Positions 17,730-34,289 of a DNA stretch of 64,000 nucleotides are shown here, one piece after another. The position numbers and the translations under genes were made by a program. The first letter of the stretch is position 1. Each line of letters starts with the position of its first letter. Under the pieces are notes generated by a model. It was not told the origin of the DNA and searched no databases. It saw only the letters and a list, made by a program, of their open reading frames with translations. Origin of the DNA: Paracoccus shandongensis (lineage in GTDB: Bacteria > Pseudomonadota > Alphaproteobacteria > Rhodobacterales > Rhodobacteraceae); contig NZ_JAFLRK010000003.1 in assembly GCF_017315735.1 (NCBI RefSeq), forward strand, positions 1 through 64,000, given 5' to 3'.

Positions 17730-19163
17730 CTAGGCCGGGGCGGGGGTCGGCTGTCCGACGAAGCGTCCCGCGCCCTCGGCGGGCAGCCCCGCGTGGGACG
17801 CGGCCCAGACGGACAGGCGTTCCGCCACCGCCGCGTCGGGCGCGCTGGTGCGGCGGGTGGACAGGTCGGTATGCAGCAGCATCGTCTCGACCGTGGCGGC
17901 CAGCGTGCCCTCGCCGCGCCACAGGCGGTGGAACAGGTGCAGCCGCTTGCCTTGCCCCGACAAGACCTGCGTGGTGATGGTCAGACGCTCGCCCGCGTGG
18001 ATTTCGTCCAGATGGCGGATGTGGCTTTCGACCGTGAAATAGCTGCGGCCCGCCGCGACATAGGCGGCATCGGCGCCGATCATCTCCATGAACCTGTCGG
18101 TCGCCTGCGAGGCTGCTTCAAGATAATGAGTTTCGTTCATGTGGCCGTTGTAGTCGGTCCAGCCGACCGGAACCTGGCGCAGAACGGTGATCGGCAGGCC
18201 GCCGCGTTCGCCGGGCGCGGGCAGGCTGCCTTCATGCGCGCGCACCACGCCGCCCGCGCCGCTGCCGGTGCGCCGCAGGGCGCGGATCATGCCCACCACG
18301 TTGTCGTCGCGCAGCCGTTCCAGGTCGCGGATCGACAGGTGCCCCGACTGGGCGTCCGATTGCGACGCGATCAGGTCCACCAGGTCGTCGTTGAATTCGG
18401 GCACGTCCATCAGCCTGGTCCAGGGCCAGGATAGCGCGGGGCCGAACTGGGCCATGAAATGGGCCATTCCCGCCTCGCCGCCCGCGATGCGATAGGTTTC
18501 GAACAGGCCCATCTGCGCCCAGCGGATGCCAAAGCCCATGCGGATCGCTTCGTCGATCTCCTCGGTCGTGGCGATGCCGTCCTTGACCAGCCACAAGGCC
18601 TCGCGCCAGACGGCTTCCAGCAGGCGGTCGGCGATATGGGCGTCGATCTCCTTGCGGACGGTCAGGGGATACATGCCGATGCCGCGCAGGATGTCGGCCG
18701 CGCGGGCGCAGGCTGCGGGATCGCCCACCAGTTCCACCAGCGGCAGCAGATAGACCGGGTTGAAGGGATGGGCCACGATGGCGCGCGTGCCAGGTTCGTT
18801 CAGGTCCGACGGCTTGAACCCCGAGGTCGAGGAGCCGATCACCGCCTCCGGTCCCGCCGCGTCCTGGATGGCGGGCAGGATGCGGTGCTTGAGCGCCAGG
18901 GTTTCGGGCACGCTTTCCTGGATCCAGTCGGCGCCCCTCACGGCCTCGGCCAGATCCGTGTGAAAGGTCAGGCGTCCCTCGGGGGGCAGCACCCGGTCAT
19001 AAAGCGCGGGCAGGGCACGGCGGGCATTGGCCAGCACCTCGCCGATCCTGCGTTCGGCCTGCGGGTCGGGGTCGAAGACCGCCACGTCCCAGCCATTCAG
19101 AAGAAAGCGCGCGGCCCAACCGCCGCCAATGACGCCGCCGCCGATGATCGCCGCCCTGCTCAT
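17730..19163 (-). CDS. cdhA: L-carnitine dehydrogenase fused to a betainyl-CoA thioesterase domain
   Basis: The 477-residue protein has two parts. Residues 1-~320 form a 3-hydroxyacyl-CoA dehydrogenase-type NAD-binding enzyme (IIGGGVIGGGWAARFLLNG, IQESVPETLALK, SSTSGFKPSDL, HPFNPVYLLPLVELVG) that oxidises L-carnitine to 3-dehydrocarnitine. From about 340 a hotdog thioesterase domain begins (VPVGWTDYNGHMNETHYLEAASQATDRF), matching the betainyl-CoA thioesterase that releases glycine betaine. In Pseudomonas these are separate proteins; fused forms are known from rhizobia. The start overlaps the stop of cdhC as ATGA, so the two are translationally coupled. Confidence 0.88.
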   Translation of the reverse strand: MSRAAIIGGGVIGGGWAARFLLNGWDVAVFDPDPQAERRIGEVLANARRALPALYDRVLPPEGRLTFHTDLAEAVRGADWIQESVPETLALKHRILPAIQDAAGPEAVIGSSTSGFKPSDLNEPGTRAIVAHPFNPVYLLPLVELVGDPAACARAADILRGIGMYPLTVRKEIDAHIADRLLEAVWREALWLVKDGIATTEEIDEAIRMGFGIRWAQMGLFETYRIAGGEAGMAHFMAQFGPALSWPWTRLMDVPEFNDDLVDLIASQSDAQSGHLSIRDLERLRDDNVVGMIRALRRTGSGAGGVVRAHEGSLPAPGERGGLPITVLRQVPVGWTDYNGHMNETHYLEAASQATDRFMEMIGADAAYVAAGRSYFTVESHIRHLDEIHAGERLTITTQVLSGQGKRLHLFHRLWRGEGTLAATVETMLLHTDLSTRRTSAPDAAVAERLSVWAASHAGLPAEGAGRFVGQPTPAPA

Positions 19164-20083
19164 GCCGCCATTCCTTTCGGGGCGCGCTTCACCAGCCCCA
19201 GCTTGTCGCGCACCGCCTGCGGGCCGATGACGCGCGCGCCCATGGTCTCGATGAGGGTGGCGGCGCGTTCGACCAACTGGGCGTTGGTGGCAAGCTGGCC
19301 CTTGCCCAGCCACAGGTTGTCCTCCAGCCCGACACGGACATTGCCGCCCGCCAGCACCGCCGCCGCGACATAGGGCATCTGGTCGCGGCCCAGGCTGAAG
19401 GCCGACCAGCACCAGTCGGCGGGCACCGCGTTCACCATCGCCATGAAGGTGTTGAGGTCGTTCGGCGCGCCCCAGGGCACCCCCATGCACAACTGCACCA
19501 GCGCGGGGCTGGAAAGCGTGCCTTCGCGCACCAGTTCCTTGGCGAACCACAGGTGGCCGGTGTCGAAGGCCTCGATCTCGGGCTTCACGCCCAGGGCCGT
19601 CATCATGCCGCCCATGGCCCGCAACATGCCGGGCGTGTTGGTCATCACGTAATCGGCCTCGGCAAAGTTCATCGTGCCGCAATCCAGCGTGCAGATCTCG
19701 GGCAGGCATTCCGCGACATGGGCCATGCGCTCGGTCGCGCCCACCATGTCGGTGCCCGCCGCGTTGACCGGAAAGGGTGCCTCGACGTGCCCGAAGACGA
19801 TGTCGCCGCCCATGCCCGCCGTCAGGTTCAGGACCACATCCACCTCGGCCTCGCGGATGCGGTCGGTGAGTTCGCGGTACAGATCAAGCCTGCGCGACGG
19901 CTTGCCGGTGCCGGGATCGCGCACATGGCAGTGGACAACCGCCGCCCCTGCCCTGGCCGCCGCGATGGCGCTGTCGGCGATGTCCTTCGGACTGCGCGGC
20001 ACATGGGGCGATCGGTCCTGCGTCGCCCCCGATCCGGTGACGGCGCAGGTGATGAAGACATCCTTGTTCATGGCAAGCGGCAT
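19160..20083 (-). CDS. cdhC: 3-dehydrocarnitine cleavage enzyme (BKACE family)
   Basis: A 307-residue beta-keto acid cleavage enzyme with the zinc-binding motif VVHCHVRDPGTGKPSRR and the family segments LNLTAGMGGD and VGLEDNLWLG. With acetyl-CoA it splits 3-dehydrocarnitine into betainyl-CoA and acetoacetate. The product feeds the thioesterase domain of the next gene, with which it overlaps by four bases. A GGAAGG ribosome-binding site precedes the ATG at 20083; Met5 is a possible internal start. A divergent GlxA-type regulator lies 100 bases away. Confidence 0.88.
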   Translation of the reverse strand: MPLAMNKDVFITCAVTGSGATQDRSPHVPRSPKDIADSAIAAARAGAAVVHCHVRDPGTGKPSRRLDLYRELTDRIREAEVDVVLNLTAGMGGDIVFGHVEAPFPVNAAGTDMVGATERMAHVAECLPEICTLDCGTMNFAEADYVMTNTPGMLRAMGGMMTALGVKPEIEAFDTGHLWFAKELVREGTLSSPALVQLCMGVPWGAPNDLNTFMAMVNAVPADWCWSAFSLGRDQMPYVAAAVLAGGNVRVGLEDNLWLGKGQLATNAQLVERAATLIETMGARVIGPQAVRDKLGLVKRAPKGMAA

Positions 20084-20139
20084 GGAACCTTCCTTCTCTC
20101 CGGCTGGTGGCAGGCTAGGGCTTCCCCCGGTGCCGCAAT

Positions 20140-20165
20140 GGTCCTATTTCTTCACCGATAGGTCC
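20140..20165. promoter_or_regulatory. inverted repeat in the carnitine intergenic region
   Basis: GGTCCTAT (20140-20147) and ATAGGTCC (20158-20165) form an imperfect inverted repeat (perfect CCTAT/ATAGG arms, 10-base spacer). It lies between cdhC and the divergent regulator, 19-44 bases before the regulator start. It could bind one of the two AraC-type regulators. Confidence 0.4.
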
Positions 20166-20183
20166 AAAGGCGTCAGATTTGCC

Positions 20184-21116
20184 GTGAAAGTCGCTTTCCT
20201 GCTGTTCGACGGGTTTTCGAACATGGTCCTGTCCTGCCTGCTGGAACCCTTGCGGGCGCTGCGCGACCAGGGGCAGGCGGACCTGGGCTGGCATGTGCTG
20301 ACGGTGGACGGCAGGCCGGCGCGGTCCTCAAGCGGGCTGCTGATCGCACCCGACGGCGGGCTGCGCGGGCCGTTCGACCTGCTGGTCGTGGTGGCGGGCT
20401 ATGGCTTTCGGGACCACGCGAACGACATCGGCCTGCGCCGCGTCCAGGCGCTGTCGCGGCAGGGGCGGATCGTCGTGGGCGCCGACACGGGGTCGTGGCT
20501 GCTGGCGGCGGCGGGCCTGCTGTCGGGACGGCGCGCGACGATCCACTGGTCGCTGGTTCCCGAATTCGCCGAGGCCTTTCCCGACGTGCAGGTGGACCCC
20601 GCGCCCCATGTGATGGAGGGCCGGGTCTGGTCCTGCGGCGGCGCGTCCGCCGCCCTGGGCATGACGCTGGCCCTGATCGAGCAGCGGTTCGGACGGGCCA
20701 GTGCCTTTCTGGCATCCTCGATGTTCCTGCATGACGCGGATCATTCCACCGCCGGCACCGGGACAAGGACGCTCCTGCCCGTGGGCAGGGCTTCGGCGCG
20801 GCTGCACCAGGTAATCGGCCTGATGGTCGGGATGATCGAGACGCCCGAGCCGCTGGCCCGGATCGCGGCGCGGTCCGGCCTGTCCCTCAGCAGCATGGAG
20901 CGGCTGTTCCGCGCCGAGGCGGGCATGTCGCCCGGCCGCTATTTCCAGATGCTGCGGCTGGCGCGGGCGCGCGATCTGGCGCTTGGCACGGATCTCGACT
21001 TGCGCGCCATCGCGCTGCGCTGCGGTTACGCAAGCGCCTCTGCCCTGGGAAAGGCGTTCAAGGGCGCCTTCGGCCACCCGATCCGGCAAACCGGACGGGG
21101 GCGGCGAAGCCTGTAG
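20184..21116 (+). CDS. GlxA family transcriptional regulator, divergent to the carnitine operon
   Basis: A 310-residue protein with a DJ-1/PfpI-like domain (about 1-180; VGADTGSWLLAAAGLLSGRRATIHW) and a C-terminal AraC helix-turn-helix domain (about 205-305; RIAARSGLSLSSMERLFRAEAG). GTG at 20184 is the likely start, since the domain's first beta strand (VKVAFLLFDGFS) begins there; the nearby upstream ATG is out of frame. Divergence from cdhC-cdhA with a short shared gap suggests it controls carnitine breakdown. It is a second, distinct member next to the one at 16712. Confidence 0.8.
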   Translation: MKVAFLLFDGFSNMVLSCLLEPLRALRDQGQADLGWHVLTVDGRPARSSSGLLIAPDGGLRGPFDLLVVVAGYGFRDHANDIGLRRVQALSRQGRIVVGADTGSWLLAAAGLLSGRRATIHWSLVPEFAEAFPDVQVDPAPHVMEGRVWSCGGASAALGMTLALIEQRFGRASAFLASSMFLHDADHSTAGTGTRTLLPVGRASARLHQVIGLMVGMIETPEPLARIAARSGLSLSSMERLFRAEAGMSPGRYFQMLRLARARDLALGTDLDLRAIALRCGYASASALGKAFKGAFGHPIRQTGRGRRSL

Positions 21117-22612: not shown

Positions 22613-22999
22613 CTATCTTCCTGCGCCGGGGCGGCGTGCCGTTGCGATCATTTCGACGCGCATCCCGGGCCGCGCCAATGCCACGCCGCAGGTTGCGCGT
22701 GCGGGCGGGTTTTCCCGGTCAACCCAAGAATCCCATACCGCATTCATGCCGGCAAAATCCGCCATGTCGCTGAGCCAGACCTGGACAGAGGCAATGTCGG
22801 CCTTGCTGCCGCCCAGTTCCGCCATCACGGCATCGATCCCGGCAAGCACCTCGGCGGTCTGGACAGCAATGTCGCCGTCCAGCGTGGACGGGATCTGGCC
22901 GGCCAGAAAAACGATGTCGCCGATGGTGACGGCCTCGCTCATGCGCGGACCTGGATTGAGACGGTTCAGCATCCTGAAGTTTCCTTTTGGTTCAGTCAT
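22613..22999 (-). CDS. RidA family protein (enamine/imine deaminase-like)
   Basis: A 128-residue YjgF/YER057c/UK114 protein with the characteristic segments GDIVFLAGQIPS and RATCGVALARPGMRVEMIATA. RidA proteins hydrolyse reactive enamines and imines to ketoacids and ammonia. The Arg in the NPPARATCGV segment aligns with the substrate-carboxylate Arg of active RidA. The start overlaps the DUF3726 gene by eight bases; a second ATG at 22972 is also possible. As the last gene of a minus-strand island with a BCCT carrier and an aldehyde dehydrogenase, it probably clears an imine intermediate. Confidence 0.85.
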   Translation of the reverse strand: MTEPKGNFRMLNRLNPGPRMSEAVTIGDIVFLAGQIPSTLDGDIAVQTAEVLAGIDAVMAELGGSKADIASVQVWLSDMADFAGMNAVWDSWVDRENPPARATCGVALARPGMRVEMIATARRPGAGR

Positions 23000-23696
23000 T
23001 ATCGTTGCTGCCTGTGCCAGCACCCCGGCGCGAGGCCTCGGTTGCGGGAACGGTGATGCGCAGCGCATAGGCTTCCAGCGCCGCGACGGTGCCGGGCGCA
23101 ACCCCTGGAAGCGGCGCGTCAGGCGCCGAGGCAGGGCGCGTGCCGGCGGCAGGCGCCAGCCAAAGCGGCGCGGCCGGTATCCGGGACAGCGCGGCAAGGA
23201 CCGGCAGGTCCGGCGGACCTTTATCCAGCGCCAGCACCAGTTCCCGGCAGGACAGCTGCACGGTGTCGCCCCTTCGCCTGCCAGCCTCTGCCAGGAAGGG
23301 CACCAGAAGAACCGGCATGGAGACCGCGTCGGTTCGGATGGCGGCCGCCAGCGGATCCTGTGCTGACCCGGCATGGTCCAGCAGCGATGCCCCCAGCCGG
23401 ATGGGGCACAGAATGCCCTTGTGCCCCGCACGCCAGTACCCCGGTTGCGGCCAGGGCCGCAGATCCCCCGAACCCGCGTCACCGACGGCATCCAGATGGC
23501 GCAGCAGCGCGCCCGCGCCGTCGATGCCATGGGCGCAAAGCCAGCCCGTGGCAAAGGCCGCTTCCTCGGCAAGTCCCCAGGCCATGCCGGCACCGCGCGC
23601 CGCCTTGAAGCAGAGCGCAGCCGTTTCGTTGCATGACAGCCGGATGGGATCGGCCGGATGCGTCTGTGCTGCGGTCTTGATGTCCGACAGGATCAT
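22992..23696 (-). CDS. DUF3726 family protein
   Basis: A 234-residue protein resembling the uncharacterised DUF3726 family. It begins with the conserved MILS..., contains LSCNETAALCFKAARGAGMAWGLAEEAAFA near residues 18-47, and has a second NE-like LSCRELVLALD segment further on. No signal peptide, membrane segment or known catalytic motif is visible. ATG at 23696 overlaps the stop of the upstream gene, and its own stop overlaps RidA, giving a tightly coupled trio. The function is unknown; linkage to RidA and the 559-residue protein suggests a joint catabolic role. Confidence 0.75.
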   Translation of the reverse strand: MILSDIKTAAQTHPADPIRLSCNETAALCFKAARGAGMAWGLAEEAAFATGWLCAHGIDGAGALLRHLDAVGDAGSGDLRPWPQPGYWRAGHKGILCPIRLGASLLDHAGSAQDPLAAAIRTDAVSMPVLLVPFLAEAGRRRGDTVQLSCRELVLALDKGPPDLPVLAALSRIPAAPLWLAPAAGTRPASAPDAPLPGVAPGTVAALEAYALRITVPATEASRRGAGTGSNDND

Positions 23697-25372
23697 GAAC
23701 CGCTCTCCTCGTCCAGGTCGCCCGGGGACGGCTCGCCCTGGAACAGGCTGATCCGCACCCATTTATCCGAGCGGGGGTCGAAATGGCTGGCTCCGAAAAA
23801 GGCAAGCTTGCAGCGCATCATGTCGATGGGCAGCACATCCTCCGCGATCAGGTTGTCGCGGATCTCTGCATAGGGCGCGGCGCGAACCATCTGAAGGCGG
23901 CGCGCCATGAACCGATGCTGCGGATGTTGCAGCAGGAAGGCGGCCAGCGTCATGTCCCGGGGCATGTCACGGATCGCCGCATGAAACTCGCAGGCCATCC
24001 TTGCGATGCAGAGAGGTTGTTCCAGCGCCGCGCCCGCCTCGGCAAGGCGGTCACCGATGCGCGGTTCCAGCTTCTCGGCCGAGACATACCAGAAGCGGGC
24101 CTGGTTTTCCGGTTCCGAGAAATCGATCTGCAATGCCCAGCGGTAGCTGTCTTCGAGCAGCGCCTGCACCGTGTCCAGGGACATCGAGCCGTCCAGTCTC
24201 GCAAGCGCCTCCTCGTCGGCGCCCATCGTCTCGGCCAGGTTATCGACCAAGGGGCCATGCGGTTCGATCAGCAGGGAAACCAGCGCTTCCTGCCCTTCAA
24301 GGGTCAGTTCGGCCTCTGCCCGCTGCCAGAGCGCATCCCAGGGATAGGGCACGGATCCCGGCCAGGACTTCAGCCATTCCGTGACCCGATCCAGATCCGC
24401 GCGCAGATCGGCAAGCTTGCGCAACTGCAGGTCGTGCGTGGACTTCCACGCGGCCGCATTGTCGCACGCCTTTCCAAGCGCGCGGCGGAAGGCCGCAACG
24501 GCATCGGGCGTGGCCGAGGGCAGCGCCCGCACCCGCGCCAGCGCGGTTTCCCGCGCGGCGATCCAGTTGTTCAGCAGATTGGGATGCCTGACAAGGAACG
24601 GCGCCATGCCAAGCCCGGTCGAATTGCCGACGCCCAGCCTGCGGCGCAGGGCGGGGTCCAGCCGGACGGCCCGGTCGCCGCCCCGCGCGCGGGCCAGATG
24701 CTCGACGATGTCGAAGGTGAATTCGCGGATCAGCCAGACCGTCAGCATCTCGGCCTGGAAAGGCGCGGCCAGTTCGGGCCGTTGGGCGATCCTGTCGCGG
24801 TCCGCCGCGCCGAACTTGCCCGAACCATAGACCGCCGTGGTCCGCATCAGATAGCCCACCGAGTCGAGTTCGGCCGCATCCGGTTGCTGCCCCGCCGCCA
24901 GGCGCTCGACCACATGGGCGAACAGCCGGACCGAGCGGTTGGCGCGGCTCAGCGTCAGTTCGGCGGCGGTGATCCGGCCGGCCTCCTGCAAGGGAACATT
25001 CGCGGCCAGCCGTGCCAGATCCGCCTCGGAGGGCTCGCCGTCGAACAGGGCGAAGGTCGCGTCCCAGGCGGTGGCGATCACCCGGTCCGAGCGCATCTCG
25101 TCGGGCAGGTCATGCGCGAAGGCCACCAGGCAATAGCTGCGCTGCGGCCCGCGTGCGCGATAGACGGCCCGGCCGACCCCCCGCGCATCGACCTGCCACA
25201 GGGGGCGGTCGAAGGTCCAGCCCTCGCGCCGGACCCGGCGCAGCAGGACACGCAAAAAGGACAGCCGCGTCGGGTGGGCGCAGCCCAGGCGTGCCAGCCG
25301 CATGACCTGCGCGGGCGGGCGCAGCAGGCTGGCGGCTTCGGCAAGGGCAAGGTCTTGGGTCATGGTCTGCAT
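23693..25372 (-). CDS. uncharacterised 559-residue protein
   Basis: I do not recognise a named family. The protein is soluble-looking (no signal peptide or membrane segment), rich in Arg, Ala and Leu, and mostly helical by composition. Distinctive segments are YLMRTTAVYGSGKFGAADRDR, NSTGLGMAPFLVRHPNLLNNW, ARFWYVSAEKLEPR and the C-terminal MRCKLAFFGASHFDPRSDKWVR. GSGKFG is not a Walker A motif. The ATG at 25372 has AGAGG eight bases upstream; Met4 is an alternative. The gene overlaps the DUF3726 gene by four bases and follows the BCCT gene by 52, so it belongs to the same transcription unit. Confidence 0.7.
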   Translation of the reverse strand: MQTMTQDLALAEAASLLRPPAQVMRLARLGCAHPTRLSFLRVLLRRVRREGWTFDRPLWQVDARGVGRAVYRARGPQRSYCLVAFAHDLPDEMRSDRVIATAWDATFALFDGEPSEADLARLAANVPLQEAGRITAAELTLSRANRSVRLFAHVVERLAAGQQPDAAELDSVGYLMRTTAVYGSGKFGAADRDRIAQRPELAAPFQAEMLTVWLIREFTFDIVEHLARARGGDRAVRLDPALRRRLGVGNSTGLGMAPFLVRHPNLLNNWIAARETALARVRALPSATPDAVAAFRRALGKACDNAAAWKSTHDLQLRKLADLRADLDRVTEWLKSWPGSVPYPWDALWQRAEAELTLEGQEALVSLLIEPHGPLVDNLAETMGADEEALARLDGSMSLDTVQALLEDSYRWALQIDFSEPENQARFWYVSAEKLEPRIGDRLAEAGAALEQPLCIARMACEFHAAIRDMPRDMTLAAFLLQHPQHRFMARRLQMVRAAPYAEIRDNLIAEDVLPIDMMRCKLAFFGASHFDPRSDKWVRISLFQGEPSPGDLDEESGS

Positions 25373-25424
25373 TATCCGTTCCTCTCGGATGGCGGGCAAC
25401 GGATCGGGTTGCCCGCCAGACGCC

Positions 25425-26978
25425 CTATTTCCGGCCCTGGCCCAGCAGCCGCGTGATGCGGACGGCGTCCCAGAGCGAGGGCAGCAGGATCAGCGACACC
25501 GGCACGGCGGTGATGACGATGAAGCTTTGCAGCTTGTCGATGCCGCCGGTGCTGGTGGCGATCAGGATCAGCGCCATCACCCCCATCGCCACGCCCCAGA
25601 AGGCGCGCAGCGGCGTCGAGGGTTCGCCATCCGACATCGAGGTCGAGATCACATAGCTCATCGAATCGCTGGTGGTTGCGACGAAGAACATGGTCAGCAC
25701 CAGGAACAGCAGCGACACCAGAAAGCCCGCCGGCAGGTTCGAGGTGATCGCCAGCAGCGCCGCAGGCAGATTGAAGCCCTCGAACGGGCCGGAAATCGCC
25801 CCTGGCGCGGCCTGTTCCAGCGCGATTCCGGTGCCGCCGATGATGGTGAACCAGAAATTGGTGATCAGCGGCGCGAAGATCGACAGCAGCAGGATGATCT
25901 GGCGGTTGGTGCGGCCCCGGCTGATCCGGGCCACGAAGATCGCCATCATCGGACCATAGCCCAGGAACCAGCCCCAGAAGAAGACCGTCCACCAGCCCAG
26001 CCAGCCCGGCTCTCCGAACAGCCCCGCATCGCCGCGATAGAAGGCCATGCCGACGAAGTTCTGCAGATAGACCCCCAGGCCGCCGAGGAAGCCGGACAGG
26101 ATCGCCCAGGTCGGGCCGAACAGCAGGATGAAGACCAGAAGGCCGAAGGCAAGGATCAGGTTCCAGCGCGACATGAACTGGATGCCGCGTTCAAGCCCGG
26201 TGATGGCCGAGATGGTATAGATCGCGACCAGCAGCAGGATCAGCGTGCTTTGCGTGGCGAAGCTGTCGGGCAGGCCGAACAGGGCGTTCAGGCCATAGGA
26301 CAGTTGCAGTCCCAGGAAGCCGATGGGTCCGACCGTGCCGGCGACCACGGCGATGACGCAGCAGGCGTCGGCCACGGTGCCGATCCAGCCATGGATCGCG
26401 CGGTCGCCGAAGACCGGATAGATCAGGGTGCGCGGCGCCAGCGGCAGGCCCTTGTCGTAATGGTAATGCATCAGCATCACCGTGGTCAGCGATCCCAGGA
26501 TCGCCCAGGCCAGGAAGCCCCAGTGCAGATAGGCCTGCGCCAGGCCGATGGTGGCAAGCGATTGCGGATCGGCGCCTGCCCCGGCGAAATAGGGCGGGGG
26601 TGAAATGAAATGGGCGATCGGCTCTCCCGCAGCCCAGAACACGCCGCCACCGGCAAGCAGCGTGGTCATCACCATGGCCGCCCATTGGAAGGTGGTGAAT
26701 TCCGGCTTGTCCAACCCGCCCAGCTTGACCCCGCTGCCCGGCATGAACAGCAGCACGATGCTGATCGCCAGCGTCGCGAACAGCAGGATCTGCCAATAAA
26801 GACCGAAGATCCGGGCCGACAGGGCAAAGCCCCGGTCGATCATCGCGCTCAGCCCCGCCAGATCGGCGACGGCCAGCAGGCAGAACAGCAGGATGAAGCC
26901 CGCCGTGATGCCCAGAAGCGGCAGGTTGATCCGGCGCCAGGCGCCCGAAACCCCCCGTGGAATGTCGAGATTGCTCAT
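25425..26978 (-). CDS. BCCT family transporter
   Basis: A 517-residue membrane protein with about 12 transmembrane segments and betaine/carnitine/choline transporter hallmarks. These are the ligand-box tryptophans in AQAYLHWGFLAW and the stretch GWWTVFFWGWFLGYGPMMAIFVARISRGRT of helix 8. These secondary carriers import trimethylammonium or related zwitterionic solutes, driven by Na+ or H+. GGGAGGAAGG precedes the ATG. The long regulatory C-terminal tail of osmotic sensors such as BetP is absent (the protein ends soon after the last helix), suggesting a catabolic rather than osmoregulatory carrier. Confidence 0.9.
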   Translation of the reverse strand: MSNLDIPRGVSGAWRRINLPLLGITAGFILLFCLLAVADLAGLSAMIDRGFALSARIFGLYWQILLFATLAISIVLLFMPGSGVKLGGLDKPEFTTFQWAAMVMTTLLAGGGVFWAAGEPIAHFISPPPYFAGAGADPQSLATIGLAQAYLHWGFLAWAILGSLTTVMLMHYHYDKGLPLAPRTLIYPVFGDRAIHGWIGTVADACCVIAVVAGTVGPIGFLGLQLSYGLNALFGLPDSFATQSTLILLLVAIYTISAITGLERGIQFMSRWNLILAFGLLVFILLFGPTWAILSGFLGGLGVYLQNFVGMAFYRGDAGLFGEPGWLGWWTVFFWGWFLGYGPMMAIFVARISRGRTNRQIILLLSIFAPLITNFWFTIIGGTGIALEQAAPGAISGPFEGFNLPAALLAITSNLPAGFLVSLLFLVLTMFFVATTSDSMSYVISTSMSDGEPSTPLRAFWGVAMGVMALILIATSTGGIDKLQSFIVITAVPVSLILLPSLWDAVRITRLLGQGRK

Positions 26979-27018
26979 GTCCTTCCTCCCTCGGACAAAG
27001 AAACCCTAGCAGGCGGCG

Positions 27019-28035
27019 CTATTCGGCCGCCCGCCGGATCGGTGTGCGGGCCTCAAGCGGCCCGAAGCTTTCGGCATAGAAACGCGCCCAGTTGCCGCCC
27101 ATCACGCCGTCGATCTCGGGTCCGGACAGACCGGCGCGGCGCAGCCCCTCGGCAATGCCCGCGAAGTCGCGATTGTCGCGGTGCCAGGTCACGGGTGCCG
27201 GAAAGCCCGGCGCCTCGGCGCTGCCTTCGCCGTAATCCATCCCCTTGGTCCAGCGCCCGACCCGCATCCATTCGACGATGCAATCCGGCTGGTCCTGGCA
27301 CAGGTCGGTGCCGATGCCGATGTTCTGCGGCCCGGTGATCTCTGCCGTGCGGGCCACCATGTCGCAGAAATCCTGAAGCGTGCAGGCGCTGCCGTTGCGC
27401 AGGTGATGCGGATAGGTCGAGACCCCCAGCATCCCGCCCGACTGGCCAAGCGCCCGCAACACATCATCCGTCTTGTTGCGCAGCGCCGGATGCCAGGCTT
27501 TCGCGTTGGCATGGGTGATGGCGATGGGGCGGCTGGAATGTTCGATGGCCTCCAGCGTCGAGCGGTCGCCCGAATGGCTCATGTCCACGACCAGGCCCAC
27601 CCGGTTCATTTCGGCCACCACCTCGCGGCCCATGCGGGTCAGGCCGGTATCCTCGGCCTCGTAGCAGCCCGAGGCGAGCAGCGACTGGTTGTTGTAGCTG
27701 AGCTGCATGAAGCGCAGGCCCAGCCTATGCAGGATCTCGACCAGGCCGATGTCGTCCTCGATGCAGGACGGGTTCTGCGCGCCGAAGAAGATCGCGGTCC
27801 GCCCGGTCTGCTGCGCCAGACGGATGTCCCGGGCGCCGCGGCCGTGAAGGATCAGTTCGGGGAAACGCTCGAACCAGCGGTTCCAGCGTTCGATGTTCAG
27901 CACCGTTTCGCGAAAGGTTTCGTGATAGGTGATCGTGACATGCACGGCGTCCAGCCCGCCCTGGCGCATCTGGCGGAAGATGCCTTCCGACCAGTTTGCA
28001 TATTGCAGCCCGTCGATCAGCGGCGCGCGCGTCAT
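27019..28035 (-). CDS. peptidase M19 (membrane dipeptidase)-like protein with altered metal site
   Basis: The 338 residues follow the M19 renal-dipeptidase TIM-barrel. The N-terminal HxD metal motif (usually DGHND) reads DGLQY at residues 8-12, and the bridging Glu region reads FFGAQN. His154 (DMSHSG) and His175 (ITHANAKA) are kept. The usual binuclear zinc site therefore cannot form as in classical dipeptidases. It lacks a signal peptide and is probably cytoplasmic. The start overlaps the aldehyde dehydrogenase stop as ATGA. It may be a hydrolase using one metal, or may have another reaction; the substrate may be whatever the BCCT carrier imports. Confidence 0.8.
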   Translation of the reverse strand: MTRAPLIDGLQYANWSEGIFRQMRQGGLDAVHVTITYHETFRETVLNIERWNRWFERFPELILHGRGARDIRLAQQTGRTAIFFGAQNPSCIEDDIGLVEILHRLGLRFMQLSYNNQSLLASGCYEAEDTGLTRMGREVVAEMNRVGLVVDMSHSGDRSTLEAIEHSSRPIAITHANAKAWHPALRNKTDDVLRALGQSGGMLGVSTYPHHLRNGSACTLQDFCDMVARTAEITGPQNIGIGTDLCQDQPDCIVEWMRVGRWTKGMDYGEGSAEAPGFPAPVTWHRDNRDFAGIAEGLRRAGLSGPEIDGVMGGNWARFYAESFGPLEARTPIRRAAE

Positions 28036-29480
28036 TCAGGCACCCCCGCCGCGACATAGGCGGTCTTCACGGTGGTATAGAATTCGGCGGCATAGCGGCC
28101 CTGCTCGCGCGGGCCGAAGCTGGAGGCGCCGCGCCCGCCGAAGGGGACGTGGTAATCGGTGCCTGCCGTGGGCAGGTTCACCATCACGCAACCCGCCCGC
28201 ATGTTGGCGCGGAAATGGCTGGCGCGGGCAAGGCTGCGGGTCATGATGCCCGCCGTCAGGCCGAAGGCGCTGTCATTGGCGATGGCGAGCGCCTCGTCAT
28301 AGCTGCCGGCGCGGATGACGCAGGTGATCGGCGCGAACATCTCCTCGCGGTTGATGCGCATGTCGTTGCGGGTGCGGGCAAAGACGGCGGGGGCCATGTA
28401 ATGGCCCGGCGTCGCCCGCTCCAGCCGCTCGCCCCCGCAAAGCAGTTCGGCGCCTTCCTCCTGGCCGATGCGGATATAGTCGAGGTTCTGCTGCAATTGC
28501 CCTTCGCTGACCACCGGGCCGATCTGCGTGCCCTGTTCCAGCGCATGGCCGACCTTCAGCGTCCGGGCCGCCGCCACCAGCCGCTCGACAAAGGCGTCGT
28601 GGACGGCCTCGTGCACGATCAGGCGCGAGGCGGCGGTGCATTTCTGCCCGCTGCCGCCGAAGGCCGCATTGGCGGCATGGGCGACGGCCAGGTCCAGGTC
28701 GGCATCCTCCATGACCAGCATGGGGTTCTTCGAACCCATCTCCATCTGCAGCTTGGTCATGTTCGCGGTGGCCGCGGCGGCGATGCCGCGCCCGACGGGC
28801 ACCGATCCGGTGAAGCTGATCGCATCGACCAGCGGGCTTTCGACCAGGCGCTGGCCGACCTCACGGCCCGGACCGGCGACCAGGTTGAAGACGCCTTTCG
28901 GAATGTCCTGGCGGGCAATGATCTCGGCCAGCATGATGGCGCTGGCCGGGGTCAGGTTCGCCGGTTTCCAGACCACCGCATTGCCATAGGCCAGCGCCGG
29001 GGCAATCTTCCAGGCCGGCGTCGCGACCGGGAAGTTCCAGGGCGAGATGATCGCCACCACGCCCACGGGTTCTCGCCGCACGTCGATCTCGATGCCGGGG
29101 CGGACGCTTTCGGCCAGGTCGCCATGGTTGCGCAAGGCCTCGGCCGCGGAATAGGTGAAGAACTGGCCCGCGCGATAAACCTCGCCCTTGCCCTCGGCCA
29201 GGGGCTTGCCTTCCTCGCGCGCGATCATGCGGCCGATCTCCTCGGACCGGGCCATCAGCTCGGTGCCGATGGCCATCAGCACGTCGTGGCGCTTCTGGAT
29301 GCCGGCCGCCCACCATGACGGCTGGGCCCGGCGCGCCGCCGCCAGCGCCTCGTCAAGCTGGGCGGCGCTGGCTTGGGCAAACTGGCCGATCACATCACGA
29401 AGATCCGAAGGGTTGCGGTTTTCCACCGTGGTTGCGCCAGACTGCCATTGGCCGTCGATATAGAGTCTGGTTTCGGTCAT
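28032..29480 (-). CDS. aldehyde dehydrogenase
   Basis: A 482-residue NAD(P)-dependent aldehyde dehydrogenase. Catalytic Cys lies in GSGQKCTAASR, the general base Glu in LQMEMGSKNPMLV, and the nucleotide-binding segments in ISPWNFPVATPAWKIAPAL and FTGSVPVGRGIA. It resembles the 2,5-dioxopentanoate/semialdehyde branch. The ATG at 29480 follows GGAGG at a good distance; the frame continues upstream but without signal. It is the first gene of the minus-strand unit (aldehyde dehydrogenase, M19-like, BCCT, unknown, DUF3726, RidA), opposite a LysR gene. Confidence 0.88.
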   Translation of the reverse strand: MTETRLYIDGQWQSGATTVENRNPSDLRDVIGQFAQASAAQLDEALAAARRAQPSWWAAGIQKRHDVLMAIGTELMARSEEIGRMIAREEGKPLAEGKGEVYRAGQFFTYSAAEALRNHGDLAESVRPGIEIDVRREPVGVVAIISPWNFPVATPAWKIAPALAYGNAVVWKPANLTPASAIMLAEIIARQDIPKGVFNLVAGPGREVGQRLVESPLVDAISFTGSVPVGRGIAAAATANMTKLQMEMGSKNPMLVMEDADLDLAVAHAANAAFGGSGQKCTAASRLIVHEAVHDAFVERLVAAARTLKVGHALEQGTQIGPVVSEGQLQQNLDYIRIGQEEGAELLCGGERLERATPGHYMAPAVFARTRNDMRINREEMFAPITCVIRAGSYDEALAIANDSAFGLTAGIMTRSLARASHFRANMRAGCVMVNLPTAGTDYHVPFGGRGASSFGPREQGRYAAEFYTTVKTAYVAAGVPE

Positions 29481-29532: not shown

Positions 29533-29556
29533 TTCAATCAATCTTAAATAATTGAA
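29533..29556. promoter_or_regulatory. inverted repeat between the aldehyde dehydrogenase and LysR genes
   Basis: TTCAAT (29533-29538) and ATTGAA (29551-29556) are perfect arms with a 12-base spacer, in an AT-rich patch within the 96-base divergent gap. It is placed where LysR-type regulators usually bind, directly upstream of their own gene. Confidence 0.5.
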
Positions 29557-29576
29557 CATTATTTCAGAAGTGCTGA

Positions 29577-30443
29577 ATGTCCATCAAGCTTGACATGCTG
29601 CGTGTCTTCAAGGTCGTCGCCGAGGAAGGCTCACTCGCCCGTGCTTCTGCGGTTCTGGGCCGGACCCCGTCCGCGGTGTCCATGATGCTGGCGCAACTGC
29701 AGGACAACGTTGGCGCCGAACTGTTCGAAACGGACCGCAAGAACCGCCTGACCCCCCTGGGCGCGCTGGTTCTGGAGGAGGCGGGCCGGGCAATCGACGC
29801 CTTTGACCGCAGCGCGGCCTCGATCCGCAGACATGCCAAATCCACGGCGGGCCTGGTGCGCATTGCTGCCGTGCCTTCGGCAACGATCGACCTGCTACCC
29901 GGAGTCATCGCCCGGTTCAGCCACCAGCGCCCGGATGTGCGGCTGGAGATCAGCGATGTGGATACCGCGACGGTGCGCCGCCTTGTCAAGCTGGACGAGG
30001 CGGATATCGGCATCCTCTCGGCCCCCGCCGGAGAGGGGCAGATCGGCAGGATGATCCGGCGCGACATGCTGGGCATCGTGTGCCGGACAGGCGGACCGAT
30101 CTCGCGGACATTGGCCACGAGTGTCGTTCCGTCCTGGGATCTGCTGAAGCTGGAGCCTTTGATCGAGAACCCGCTGTGTCACTTGGTTTCTTCCCCGGTG
30201 CTTTCCAGCCTGCTGCCGGTTTGCAACCTGGAAGCCCGCAACACGACCGCATTGCTGGCCTTCGTGCGCAGCGGGATGGGCGCCACGGTCCTGCCGGAGA
30301 GCGCCATCGGCCACAGCCCCGAACAGCTGGAATTCGTGGCCCCCCGGGATCCCGAAAGCTGGCGCGAGCTTCGCAAGATACACGGCACCGACCGGCATCT
30401 CAGCCCTGCCGCTCGGGCCTTCTGGGATCTGATCGGCGCCTGA
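29577..30443 (+). CDS. LysR family transcriptional regulator
   Basis: A 288-residue protein with an N-terminal helix-turn-helix (about 3-62; LARASAVLGRTPSAVSMMLAQLQDNVGAELF) and a periplasmic-binding-protein-like effector domain (about 88-285). It is divergent from the aldehyde dehydrogenase-BCCT unit, with a candidate operator in the shared gap. It is therefore the likely regulator of that island. The upstream sequence lacks a clear Shine-Dalgarno site, but the ATG at 29577 begins the standard LysR N-terminus. Confidence 0.88.
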   Translation: MSIKLDMLRVFKVVAEEGSLARASAVLGRTPSAVSMMLAQLQDNVGAELFETDRKNRLTPLGALVLEEAGRAIDAFDRSAASIRRHAKSTAGLVRIAAVPSATIDLLPGVIARFSHQRPDVRLEISDVDTATVRRLVKLDEADIGILSAPAGEGQIGRMIRRDMLGIVCRTGGPISRTLATSVVPSWDLLKLEPLIENPLCHLVSSPVLSSLLPVCNLEARNTTALLAFVRSGMGATVLPESAIGHSPEQLEFVAPRDPESWRELRKIHGTDRHLSPAARAFWDLIGA

Positions 30444-30563: not shown

Positions 30564-31529
30564 CTATTCCAGCAGACTGTCGGAACCGTGGACATCGGCC
30601 CGAAAGATCGCCGTCCTGATTTCGCCGCTCTTGTCGCACCAGGCACGATACATCCCGGGGCTGTTGAACGGCAGAGCGACGTTGCCATGGCGATCCACCG
30701 CGACAAGCCCGCCCGAGCCGCCGCGCGCGCCCAGTTCTGTCACGACATCGCCGGCGGCGCGCGCCAGGTCCTGGCCCGCCCACCGCATCCGGGCGTCGAT
30801 CTCGTGGCCGGCGGCCCAGCGGATGAAGAACTCGCCGTGGCCGGTGGCGGACATGGCCAGCGTTTCGTCATCCGCCCAGGTTCCGGCACCGATCACCGGG
30901 CTGTCGCCCACCCGGCCCGGACGCTTTGCCGTCATGCCGCCGGTCGAGGTGGCGGCAGCCAGGTGCCCGTGAACGTCACAGGCCACGGCGCCAACCGTGC
31001 CGTGCTTGCGGGCCGGATCGCCATCGTCGGGCAGGTTCAGGCGCCGCCGCTCCAACTCGGCTTCCAGCGCCTCGCGGCGGACGGGGGTGCCGAACCAGTC
31101 GGGCGGCATCATCTCCAACCCCACCGAGGCGCAGAAGCGGGCGGCACCCTCGCCGGCAAGCAGGACATGCCCGCTTTGCTCCATGACCGCACGGGCCGCC
31201 AGAACGGGATGGCGGGGACCGCAGATCCCCGCGATGGCGCCGCACGCGCGTGTCGTCCCCTCCATGACGGCGGCGTCCATTTCATGCGTGCCGTCCGAGG
31301 TGAAGACCGCGCCGCGACCGGCGTTGAACAGCGGATCGTCCTCAAGCGCCATCACGGACGCGGTGACGGCATCCAGCGCCGGTGCGCCCTGCCGCAACAG
31401 GGTCAGCCCCGCCTGAAGGCAGGCGTGGAGGGCGGCGTGCAGCGCGGCTTCCTTCTCGGCGGTGATCTTGCTGGGAAGGATGGTGCCGGCGCCGCCGTGC
31501 AGGGCAATGACAGGGGTGAAACGCGTCAA
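30564..31529 (-). CDS. iaaA: isoaspartyl peptidase/L-asparaginase (Ntn hydrolase)
   Basis: A 321-residue plant-type asparaginase precursor. The catalytic Thr178 in KHGTVGAVA becomes the N-terminal nucleophile after self-cleavage, giving subunits of about 177 and 144 residues. HGGAGT at the N-terminus and GRVGDSPVIGAGTWADD near the substrate site are typical. It hydrolyses beta-aspartyl dipeptides and asparagine. The start is TTG at 31529, with GAGG six bases before it. It is the last gene of the peptide-utilisation operon. Confidence 0.88.
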   Translation of the reverse strand: MTRFTPVIALHGGAGTILPSKITAEKEAALHAALHACLQAGLTLLRQGAPALDAVTASVMALEDDPLFNAGRGAVFTSDGTHEMDAAVMEGTTRACGAIAGICGPRHPVLAARAVMEQSGHVLLAGEGAARFCASVGLEMMPPDWFGTPVRREALEAELERRRLNLPDDGDPARKHGTVGAVACDVHGHLAAATSTGGMTAKRPGRVGDSPVIGAGTWADDETLAMSATGHGEFFIRWAAGHEIDARMRWAGQDLARAAGDVVTELGARGGSGGLVAVDRHGNVALPFNSPGMYRAWCDKSGEIRTAIFRADVHGSDSLLE

Positions 31530-31551
31530 GGTTGGCCTCGTGGAACAGGGG

Positions 31552-32370
31552 TTAACGGACGGCGAAGCTCATCGCCGACAGCGCGGTCATCCAGCCGATC
31601 ACCTCGGCCATGGTGGCGCAGTCGAAGGCCACGGTCATCGGATCGACCCGGATGGCGGGGGGAAGGACGGCGAACTGGTCGGCCAGCACGGCGCGCGAGA
31701 CGGTGAATTCCGCGCGGAACGGGCCTTTCGGCGGGACAGGCGCAAGGCGGGCCGAGGATCTGGCGGCCCGCAGCGCGGCCTCTCGCAAAAGCTGGCGCGC
31801 GCGCGTCACCGACAGTTGCCGGGCCGCCCGCTCTCCCATCGCGTGCTTCACGACGGCGAACTGGGCGTCGGGGAACAGCGGGCGGTTCTCGGCCTCGGTC
31901 CGGTCGTCGCCCGAGATCAGCCCGACCGGCACCCCGAGTTCCGCGGCATAGGCGCCATAGATCGCCGGTTCCCCGCAGGGGACGCCATTAACGCGCACCT
32001 CGTGGAAGGCAAAGCCGTTGGTGGTGTGGGACAGAACGCCCCCGCCGCCCGCGCGGGAATGATGGCCGGTCATGCAGAACAGATCGAAACCGCCGTCCAG
32101 GCCGCAGGCCATGTTCATGGGCTTGGGCTTGCCCAGGATCACGTCGGCGGCCGGATGCAGCAGGTCGGGCAGCAGGTTGGTCATCGGACCGTGCGAGTCG
32201 TTGACCAGGATTTCGGCCGCGCCGCCTTCCAGCAGGCCTTCGATGACGGCATTGACCTCGTGTGTCATCAACAGGCGGGCCTTTTCATGGTCGGCATGGC
32301 CTGCCTGGCATTGCGCCGGAGAAACGACGCCGGCCACGCCCTCGATATCGGCCGAGATATAGACGCGCAT
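31552..32370 (-). CDS. M55 family D-aminopeptidase
   Basis: A 272-residue DppA-type zinc aminopeptidase. Metal-binding segments include ISADIEGVAGV at the N-terminus, VNDSHGPMTNLLP and FCMTGHHSRAG. Family members are self-compartmentalising decamers that remove N-terminal D-amino acids (for example D-Ala-D-Ala). It is nine bases after the permease gene gsiD and 22 before iaaA, so it is co-expressed with the peptide importer and probably trims imported peptides in the cytoplasm. Confidence 0.87.
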   Translation of the reverse strand: MRVYISADIEGVAGVVSPAQCQAGHADHEKARLLMTHEVNAVIEGLLEGGAAEILVNDSHGPMTNLLPDLLHPAADVILGKPKPMNMACGLDGGFDLFCMTGHHSRAGGGGVLSHTTNGFAFHEVRVNGVPCGEPAIYGAYAAELGVPVGLISGDDRTEAENRPLFPDAQFAVVKHAMGERAARQLSVTRARQLLREAALRAARSSARLAPVPPKGPFRAEFTVSRAVLADQFAVLPPAIRVDPMTVAFDCATMAEVIGWMTALSAMSFAVR

Positions 32371-32379
32371 CGCCGCCCC

Positions 32380-33264
32380 TCAGTTCATGCGCAGCTTGGG
32401 GTCCAGCGCGTCGCGCAGGCCGTCGCCCAGCAGGTTGAAGCCCAGCACCGTCAGGAAGATGGCAAGGCCCGGAAACAGCGTCAGGTGGTCGGCGACGCCC
32501 ATGTAGGTGCGCCCGTCGGCCAGCATGGCCCCCCATTCGGGCGAGGGCGGCTGCGCCCCCAGTCCGATGAAGGACAGGGCCGCCGCCGTCAGGATCGAGG
32601 TGCCAATGCGCATCGAGAAATAGACGATCACGTTCGGCAGCGTGCCGGGCAGGATGTGGCGCAGCATGATGGTGCCGTCGCCGACGCCCACGGCGCGGGC
32701 CGCATCGACGTAAACGGCGCGCTTCAACTGAAGCGTCGTGCCCCGGGCCAGCCGCGCGAAGACCGGGATCGAGAAGATGGCGACGGCATAGATCACGTTG
32801 GTGATCCCCGGCCCCAGGATCGCGATCACGGCAATGGCCAGCAGGATGCCCGGGAACGCCAGCAGCAGGTCGCAAAGCCGCATCACCGCGCTGTCGGTCC
32901 AGCCCCCGTAATAGCCCGCGACGATGCCAAGGCCGACCCCGCCAAGCGCGCCCAGGCTGACCGACAGGAACCCCACCGTCAGCGAGATCCGGGCCCCCCA
33001 GATGATGCGGCTGAAAATGTCGCGGCCATAGGTGTCCGTTCCCGCCCAATGCGCGGCGCTTGGCCCCTGCAGGACGTTCACGTAATCCGGGGCCGCCGGG
33101 TCATAGGGCGCGATCCAGGGCGCCAGGATCGCGGCGCCGATCAGCAGGACCAGGAAGGCCAGCGCGACCAGCGCGACCTTCTGGCGCAGAAAGCGTTTCC
33201 AGAACTCGGCAAGGGGTTTTCTCGTCTTGCCGATCTCGTCCATGCTCATGCTGGCATCGGTCAT
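32380..33264 (-). CDS. gsiD: glutathione/dipeptide ABC transporter permease (GsiD/DppC type)
   Basis: A 294-residue permease with the N-terminal cytoplasmic segment and first helix typical of DppC ([23 protein letters not shown]). It then has [24 protein letters not shown] and the EAA-like loop [22 protein letters not shown]. It overlaps the partner permease gene as ATGA. The importer handles short peptides; GsiABCD is the closest named set, but peptides other than glutathione are quite possible given the associated peptidases. Confidence 0.85.
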
Positions 33265-34181
33265 TGGTAACGGATCTCCGGATTGGCAAGGACGTAAAGG
33301 ACATCGACCAGAAGGTTGATGAGGATGAACTGGATCGAGAACATCAGCACCAGCGCCTGGATCACGGGATAGTCGCGGTAGCTGACCGAATCGACCAGAA
33401 GACGCCCCACGCCGGGCCAGGCGAAGACCGCCTCGATCACGATCGAGCCGCCCAGAAGGAAGCCGAACTGCAACCCGACCATCGTGATGATGGGGATCAG
33501 GGCGTTGCGCAGCGAATGGCGCCAGATCACCCGGCGTTCCGGCACGCCCTTGGCGCGGGCGGTGCGGACGTAATCCTCGCGCGCGATCTCGATGAAGGCG
33601 GAACGGGTGAACCGCGCCATCACCGCCGCGACGCCAAGACCCAGCGTGAAGGACGGCATCAGGAAATGCTGCCAGGTGCCGTATCCCCCCGTGGGCAGCC
33701 AGCCAAGCCGGACCGAGAACAGGTTGATGAGCAGCAGCCCCAGCCAGAAAGGCGGGAACGAGATGCCCGACACCGCCAGGATCATGCCGCCATAATCCTG
33801 CCACCGGCCCCGCCTGACCGCCGAGACGACGCCGATCAGCAGGCCAAGGGCCACCGCCCAGATCATCGCGAACAGCGTGAGCCAGACCGTCGGCATCAGC
33901 CGCATCCCGATCTCGTCCACGACGGGGCGGCGGGTGCGCAGCGAGGTGCCGAAATCGCCCTGCAGCGTATTGCCGACATAGGTCAGGAACTGCTGGGGCA
34001 GCGGCCGGTCCAGGCCCAGGGCCGTGCGGACGGCGGCCACGTCCTGCGCGGTGGCTTCCGGGCCCGCGACCAGACGGGCCGGATCGCCGGGCAGAAGGTG
34101 GACGAAGGCGAAAACCGCGATCATCACCATCAGGACAACCGGGATCGTGCCCAGCAGTCGTTTGATCAGAAAGGATAGCAT
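33261..34181 (-). CDS. gsiC: glutathione/dipeptide ABC transporter permease (GsiC/DppB type)
   Basis: A 306-residue permease with DppB hallmarks: [21 protein letters not shown] at the start, [11 protein letters not shown] and the loop [30 protein letters not shown] at 34181 is used because the preceding residues lack any permease character. It heterodimerises with the protein encoded by the following, overlapping gene. Confidence 0.87.
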
Positions 34182-34257
34182 GAGGTTCCTGTCCCGGCCG
34201 GGCCTGACCCGGGCCGCTGCGCCCAGGGGCAATGACGGTTGGCGCTTGTCGAAGGAC

Positions 34258-34280
34258 GGGGACGGCGCGGCGCCGCCCCC
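34258..34280 (-). other. intercistronic hairpin after the peptide-binding-protein gene
   Basis: GGGG-A-CGGCG (34258-34267) pairs with CGCCG-C-CCCC (34271-34280) around a three-base loop with one internal mismatch. It lies in the 108-base gap between the binding-protein stop and gsiC, the same arrangement as at 8086 and 61752. Confidence 0.55.
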
Positions 34281-34289
34281 GCAGGTGCA

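Follow-up and report, generated by a model that had tools for sequence, protein, structure and literature searches.

The first 64,000 nucleotides of Paracoccus shandongensis contig NZ_JAFLRK010000003.1 (hereafter the window) carry a six-gene minus-strand operon, headed by a divergent LysR-type regulator gene, whose composition is unusual and conserved. Our favoured, though still tentative, reading is a catabolic operon under LysR control that serves an imported and most likely cyclic N-methylated zwitterion. The operon probably takes up and degrades a nitrogen-containing salt-protectant such as homarine. The evidence comes from sequence comparisons and structure models: the gene set itself and its recurrence in other genomes, the predicted dehydrogenase-type fold of the DUF3726 protein, the metal ligands lost from the M19-like protein, and the alternation of a RidA gene with a gene for an Ldh_2-family dehydrogenase (Ldh) among related loci. 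The genes and sites of the operon and its control region are as follows.

28032..29480, minus strand: aldehyde dehydrogenase (ALDH), operon gene 1, 482 amino acids from ATG (Pfam Aldedh, 3.5e-161)
27019..28035, minus strand: M19-like protein, 338 amino acids, with a non-canonical metal site (Pfam Peptidase_M19, 1.4e-72)
25425..26978, minus strand: BCCT-family carrier, 517 amino acids, with an altered aromatic pocket (Pfam BCCT, 2.3e-144)
23693..25372, minus strand: P559, a 559-residue protein without a named family, 559 amino acids from ATG
22992..23696, minus strand: DUF3726 protein, 234 amino acids from ATG, with a shortened Ldh_2-type fold in the model (Pfam PF12525, 2.9e-17)
22613..22972, minus strand: RidA-family protein, 119 amino acids (Pfam Ribonuc_L-PSP, 2.6e-26)
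29577..30443, plus strand: divergent LysR-type regulator, 288 amino acids (Pfam LysR_substrate, 5.8e-26)
29533..29556: inverted repeat TTCAAT-N12-ATTGAA, a likely LysR operator predicted from the sequence and from comparison with relatives
29563..29577: second inverted repeat, TTCAG-N5-CTGAA, read from the sequence and abutting the LysR start codon

A total of 134 loci (L031-L164) were examined. P559 is at least 44% identical in 127 of them, and 103 extend 5 kb or more upstream and 3.5 kb or more downstream; the class genomes and the species-genome stretches may overlap in species, and the loci are not all independent. Neighbours in the 103 loci were counted within 7 kb and on the same strand, with thresholds of at least 50% for M19, at least 25% by tblastn for DUF3726 and at least 55% for ALDH. 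The first-pass annotation had proposed that P559, DUF3726, BCCT and M19-like genes would be found together in other genomes, and this co-occurrence holds, with an M19-like gene near P559 in 95/103 loci, a tblastn-detectable DUF3726 gene in 75/103 and an ALDH gene in 63/103. The commonest order is a divergent LysR gene, ALDH, M19, in some loci BCCT, P559, DUF3726 and then RidA or Ldh, and variants occur. RidA, ALDH, M19, BCCT and P559 are consecutive in Vibrio sp. THAF190c; SoxBDAG, a regulator, LysR, ALDH, M19, BCCT, P559, DUF3726 and Ldh lie together in Ruegeria sp. TM1040; and one stretch of Shinella holds SoxB/D/A, a GlxA regulator, LysR, ALDH, M19, P559, DUF3726, Ldh, three glycine-betaine-type ABC genes and PurU. 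The P559 genes of Phaeobacter inhibens DSM 17395 and Ruegeria sp. TM1040 are PGA1_RS19010 and TM1040_RS02335, respectively; literature on plasmid genes of P. inhibens yielded no mention of this operon. Because the set recurs across so many genomes, a chance neighbourhood appears very unlikely as its cause.

Among 385 genomes sampled from the window's class (window genome included), 53 encode P559, as do 29 of the 398 genomes of a phylum draw that overlaps the class draw. It was also found in 168 plasmid records, and species genomes gave at least 587 matching stretches, the best 80 of which were kept. The genomes bearing it include some of 1.2-1.6 Mb, a size compatible with abundant ocean bacteria. 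Four genomes (G154, G252, G543 and G672) have two P559 copies each, perhaps serving two substrates, and two frames contain internal stops (G077:C43, with 14 in the main match, and G346:C116, with one), representing decayed genes or poor assemblies.

P559 yielded nothing over the curated cut-offs of Pfam or NCBIfam, its lone Pfam match (0.077) lying far below the cut-off, and when 30 family members down to 28% identity were compared with Pfam, no match was common to even two of them. Across these 30 sequences, 29 columns are invariant and eight of these are arginine, a pattern suggestive of an enzyme whose substrate is acidic. An AlphaFold2 model built from 80 sequences is confident, with a predicted local distance difference test score (pLDDT) of 89.5 and a predicted template-modelling score (pTM) of 0.91. 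Foldseek searches with the whole protein gave no match at E <=0.001 in either the PDB (best E 0.36) or the viral models of BFVD (best E 0.25). These best hits and a likeness to phage Mu Mom (best VIA Z 4.8) were taken as chance, a match to V-ATPase subunit C over about 150 positions in a helical part (0.0013, from a profile search of PDB sequences) was rejected, and a profile comparison shows no relation between P559 and DUF3726. With no named family and no matching known fold, P559 may be a new type of enzyme, although the lack of a match is no proof that its fold is new. In Mesorhizobium, P559 and DUF3726 form a single gene (L032 11947-14391), a fusion which suggests that the two proteins work together. 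In another locus, P559 lies inside an 868-amino-acid frame that is perhaps a second such fusion (L059 8550-11156).

The DUF3726 protein model (pLDDT 90.2) has the fold of the Ldh_2 dehydrogenases, a family that includes delta1-piperideine-2-carboxylate reductase. All of the top 15 VIA rows (Z 9.8-12.9) are Ldh_2 by title, with the next row at 4.9, and the best Foldseek match is likewise to Ldh_2 dehydrogenases (E 3.8e-4). The DUF3726 profile aligned with that of the Ldh proteins of P559 loci over 53 columns (hhalign probability 54, E 1.3e-4), and a true Ldh_2 gene is often part of the same operon. The DUF3726 proteins are shorter than these Ldh proteins, however (190-248 amino acids in 70 rows, compared with 327-351 in 14), and differ from them in two segments, the GTNP motif and the SHG catalytic segment of Ldh_2 enzymes. 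GTNP is present in all 14 Ldh proteins and in none of the 70 DUF3726 proteins, whereas SHG is present in 11/14 and 4/70, respectively, with a histidine at that column in 19/70 DUF3726 proteins. We read the protein as a shortened Ldh_2 relative in which nicotinamide cofactor binding has probably been lost. Of the 70 DUF3726 proteins, 65 retain a Cys-Pro pair, which lies at residues 97-98 in the window protein and is perhaps functional. The term "DUF3726" had no match in the literature searched.

The M19-like protein has as its nearest solved chain the amidohydrolase 2i5g (1.3e-58), which we take to be the P. aeruginosa protein PA5396 of the dimethylglycine operon. With ligand positions that we assume from renal dipeptidase and from the alignments of the 2i5g search, the HxD positions are occupied by leucine (L10, 108/109 proteins) and tyrosine (Y12, 101/109), and the bridging glutamate by glutamine (Q87) in 109/109; two histidines and one aspartate are kept in all 109. 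As both the HxD motif and the bridging glutamate are replaced, a two-metal dipeptidase centre is unlikely. The DGH motif is characteristic of dipeptidases; 2i5g shows a similar change, its aligned stretch having DGL and QN in place of the dipeptidases' DGH and EG, although the partner genes of the two proteins are unlike. The M19 fold family and the three retained residues could still point to a real hydrolase of an N-acylated or peptide-like betaine, with P559 and DUF3726 as accessory proteins. We consider this improbable given the replaced ligands and the conservation of P559, which resembles that of an enzyme. For the amide option put forward by the first-pass annotation, an amide-cleaving dipeptidase is not supported, as the M19-like protein is missing key metal ligands.

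A more distant three-gene module bears on which of these proteins form the core. In Sinorhizobium, Ensifer, Aminobacter and Variovorax, a P559 relative of 28-33% identity, an unnamed protein of 225-242 amino acids and an M19-like protein lie together under an IclR regulator (L165 9953-13399; L169 10001-13409; L170 8755-12181; L168 8941-12437), with the first two genes annotated as "hypothetical protein". This trio stands beside other, unrelated transporters (in rhizobia, other ABC transporters), and its neighbours include ALDH and RidA in Sinorhizobium and Ensifer and RidA alone in Aminobacter. That the trio keeps its ALDH and RidA neighbours yet has other transporters argues that it is a catalytic core, with an aldehyde and an imine as its putative products. 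P559 and DUF3726 might instead be non-enzymatic, sensing or storing an osmolyte or assembling the carrier, a role with which the lack of a recognised cofactor motif and of GTNP in all 70 DUF3726 proteins would agree. This seems quite improbable to us, as P559 and M19 remain together at loci with a different type of carrier or with none seen, and as the distant trio sits beside transporters of unrelated kinds.

RidA and Ldh alternate among the loci. With a close Ldh defined as at least 50% identical and on the same strand, RidA and a close Ldh never occur together in the 103 loci, 21 of which have RidA only, 30 Ldh only and 52 neither (Fisher 3e-4). In the 61 ALDH-bearing loci the counts are 0 for both, 21 for RidA only, 21 for Ldh only and 19 for neither (Fisher 1e-5). 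Mapped onto the P559 tree, RidA needs a minimum of 8 changes and Ldh a minimum of 16, and both genes can be found on either side of P559. The nearest solved relative of the Ldh proteins is delta1-piperideine-2-carboxylate reductase (4.8e-53). The window RidA contains the PARAT...VEM segment, including the arginine and glutamate of RidA deaminase, and the pattern PARA[TC]...VE is present in 17 of 28 RidA cluster members, with the other 11 giving no match to it; the arginine of the PARAT/PARAC segment and the glutamate of VE are presumably the functional residues. Both the RidA and the Ldh families act on imines. As the two genes alternate and both families have this activity, the most economical interpretation is a single imine intermediate that can leave through either RidA or Ldh. 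The imine/enamine step that the first-pass annotation assigned to RidA thus gains support from its alternation with an Ldh nearest to a piperideine carboxylate reductase.

Three types of importer interchange at these loci. Among the 128 stretches in which a P559 gene was called, the window-type BCCT was found in 25, another BCCT type, identified by similarity alone, in 12, and an OpuAC-type (glycine-betaine-type) ABC importer, named by Pfam and by annotation, in 16; no stretch holds two types. This interchange supports the claim of the first-pass annotation that the genes form a single unit, conserved here, for breaking down a betaine-like compound. The 25 window-type BCCTs were searched for pocket motifs. 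In transmembrane helix 8 (TM8), WTVFFWGWF[ML]GYGP is present in 24/25 (one without a match), and in these 24 the second and third tryptophans are phenylalanine and tyrosine. In transmembrane helix 4 (TM4), HWGFLAWAIL or its variant in -IV is present in 22/25 (three without a match), and the tyrosine of TM4 is leucine or valine. PMC12093977 names six aromatic pocket residues for glycine betaine in Vibrio BCCT1, and three of these six positions, placed by motif, are changed in the window carrier. In the same study, Vibrio BCCT4 and BCCT7 are reported to have the same second and third tryptophans changed and to have taken up no tested osmolyte, their expression being unchecked. Although the window carrier belongs to the same family as the glycine betaine carriers BetP and Vibrio BCCT1, it probably does not import glycine betaine, because three of the six pocket residues differ.

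These pocket changes also bear on the possibility that an acyclic quaternary amine is degraded, with P559, DUF3726 and the M19-like protein forming a demethylase and no ring being opened. MttB, DMGDH-like, GCV_T/DmdA-like and sarcosine-oxidase genes neighbour some loci, and a carnitine 3-dehydrogenase gene (735 bits, cut-off 592) adjoins the window cluster. We nevertheless think this reading unlikely. Known demethylases are already present in those neighbourhoods, stepwise demethylation needs neither an imine-type Ldh nor RidA, the BCCT pocket differs from that for glycine betaine in both TM8 and TM4, and the two Vibrio carriers with the same tryptophan changes showed no uptake of any osmolyte tried, with the caveat on their expression given above (PMC12093977).

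Under our favoured reading of a cyclic N-methylated substrate, the BCCT (elsewhere the second BCCT or the OpuAC-type ABC importer) would import the zwitterion, as its family suggests. P559, DUF3726 and the M19-like protein would then work together as a single enzyme system, cleaving a C-N bond of the ring to give an aldehyde and an imine or enamine. ALDH, judging from its family, would oxidise the aldehyde, and the window RidA would hydrolyse the imine or enamine. In other lineages the imine or enamine would be reduced by Ldh, and the resulting N-methyl amino acid may then be demethylated by an enzyme of the heterotetrameric sarcosine-oxidase/N-methylglutamate-dehydrogenase type. The proposal of the first-pass annotation, a betaine-like substrate imported and degraded via an imine and an aldehyde, is retained here in its betaine-type unit and its imine step, and an amide-cleaving dipeptidase is not. 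A bolder version, which strikes us as rather unlikely, is that P559 is both a new enzyme and a new fold which, with a cut-down Ldh_2 relative and a demetallated M19 protein, opens an N-methylated heterocycle with no recognised redox cofactor or oxygenase and with two interchangeable imine exits.

Two known pathways were compared with this scheme. In trigonelline degradation (tgn genes), an N-methylpyridinium carboxylate is broken down with an aldehyde dehydrogenase, a gene for which is also found in the window operon, and a flavin monooxygenase serves for ring opening; no flavin monooxygenase was noticed among the recurrent P559 neighbours, most of which are unannotated and were not searched by name. 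Homarine (N-methylpicolinate) is the leading candidate for the substrate, albeit a doubtful one, as it would fit in being a zwitterion with an N-methyl group, a ring and an N-methyl-amino-acid product. A conserved homarine pathway has reportedly been described by Ferrer-Gonzalez et al. (2026, Nat Microbiol 11:1531-1546), with an operon said to be called homABCDER, a name that would suit a LysR regulator and five genes for enzymes. The name homABCDER had no match in the literature searched. The 2026 work is cited in PMC13390433, and the operon may already have been described as the homarine operon. PMC13390433 also reports a role for N-methylglutamate dehydrogenase (Mgd) in homarine breakdown, and PMC3160333 has the N-methylglutamate dehydrogenase genes ordered as in SAR11 sarcosine oxidase operons. 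As the gene orders are identical, the SoxBDAG-type (Mgd-like) neighbours of P559 in some loci may be either enzyme. The window differs from this pattern in having RidA in the place of Ldh and no adjacent Mgd-type genes.

Several observations weigh against the proposed pathway. The ring opening is a guess from the partner genes, and no cofactor site or motif was recognised in P559. None of the three importer types is present in 75 of the 128 P559 stretches. Just 2/103 loci have SoxA at 7 kb or less from P559, and SoxB was found anywhere in 6/80 named loci; SoxB/SoxA-type genes are near P559 in some relatives and not in the window. Two SoxA-scale loci occur elsewhere in the window genome, and an unlinked SoxA partner was rejected, both being only 44-47% identical to the P559-linked SoxA. 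The exclusion between RidA and Ldh is likewise imperfect: neither RidA nor a close Ldh is present at 52/103 loci, and when distant Ldh (at least 35%) is counted, both genes occur in one of the 103 (L087) and also in L091, the flank of which is too short for that set. After correction for descent, the exclusion is not significant (sign test 0.125-1, 1-4 informative pairs). Subsequent use of methylamine released by RidA was also considered, and the window genome gave no supporting gene; if RidA does release methylamine, the lack there of a type III glutamine synthetase over the cut-off counts against the pathway, as does the failure to find a methylamine dehydrogenase light chain in a search whose own control was also unmatched.

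All seven genes, six on the minus strand plus the divergent LysR gene, have the positions and strands given by the first-pass annotation, and Pfam supports each family that it named, with P559 alone being without one. The inverted repeat that it saw at the operon head was found, as TTCAAT-N12-ATTGAA, within the 96-bp divergent region between LysR and ALDH. Its statement that most junctions overlap did not stand: with ATG starts, just two of the five overlap, by 4 bp each (ALDH/M19 and P559/DUF3726), and the others are gaps of 40 bp (M19/BCCT), 52 bp (BCCT/P559) and 19 bp (DUF3726/RidA). In the LysR/ALDH intergenic regions of the window and 14 relatives, TTCA-N16-TGAA is present in 9/15 and AGA-N-TG in 15/15, partly because the loci are related by descent. 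A single intrinsic-terminator-like site at 27008-27035 was disregarded, as shuffled sequence gave a mean of 4.1, so that fewer were observed than expected. The best NCBIfam model for ALDH is alpha-ketoglutaric semialdehyde dehydrogenase (NF042993), with a score of 495.5 bits that lies under its cut-off of 770. Adjoining the operon at 17733-21116 is the L-carnitine degradation cluster that contains the carnitine 3-dehydrogenase gene, together with a BKACE-type cleavage enzyme and a GbdR-like GlxA-family regulator, both under their cut-offs. On the other side, at 30564-34419 on the minus strand, beta-aspartyl-peptidase-like and DppA-like genes (both below NCBIfam cut-offs) lie beside ABC-permease-like genes.

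Finally, P559 is so widespread, with neither a named family nor a fold match, that it probably handles a common natural compound. If the homarine operon proves to be this one, the DUF3726 protein as a shortened Ldh_2 relative, the M19-like protein without its metal ligands and the alternative RidA and Ldh exits would still inform the mechanism. The reaction of P559, once known, would give a function to hundreds of genes annotated as "hypothetical protein" and "DUF3726", and would show which bacteria consume the compound.

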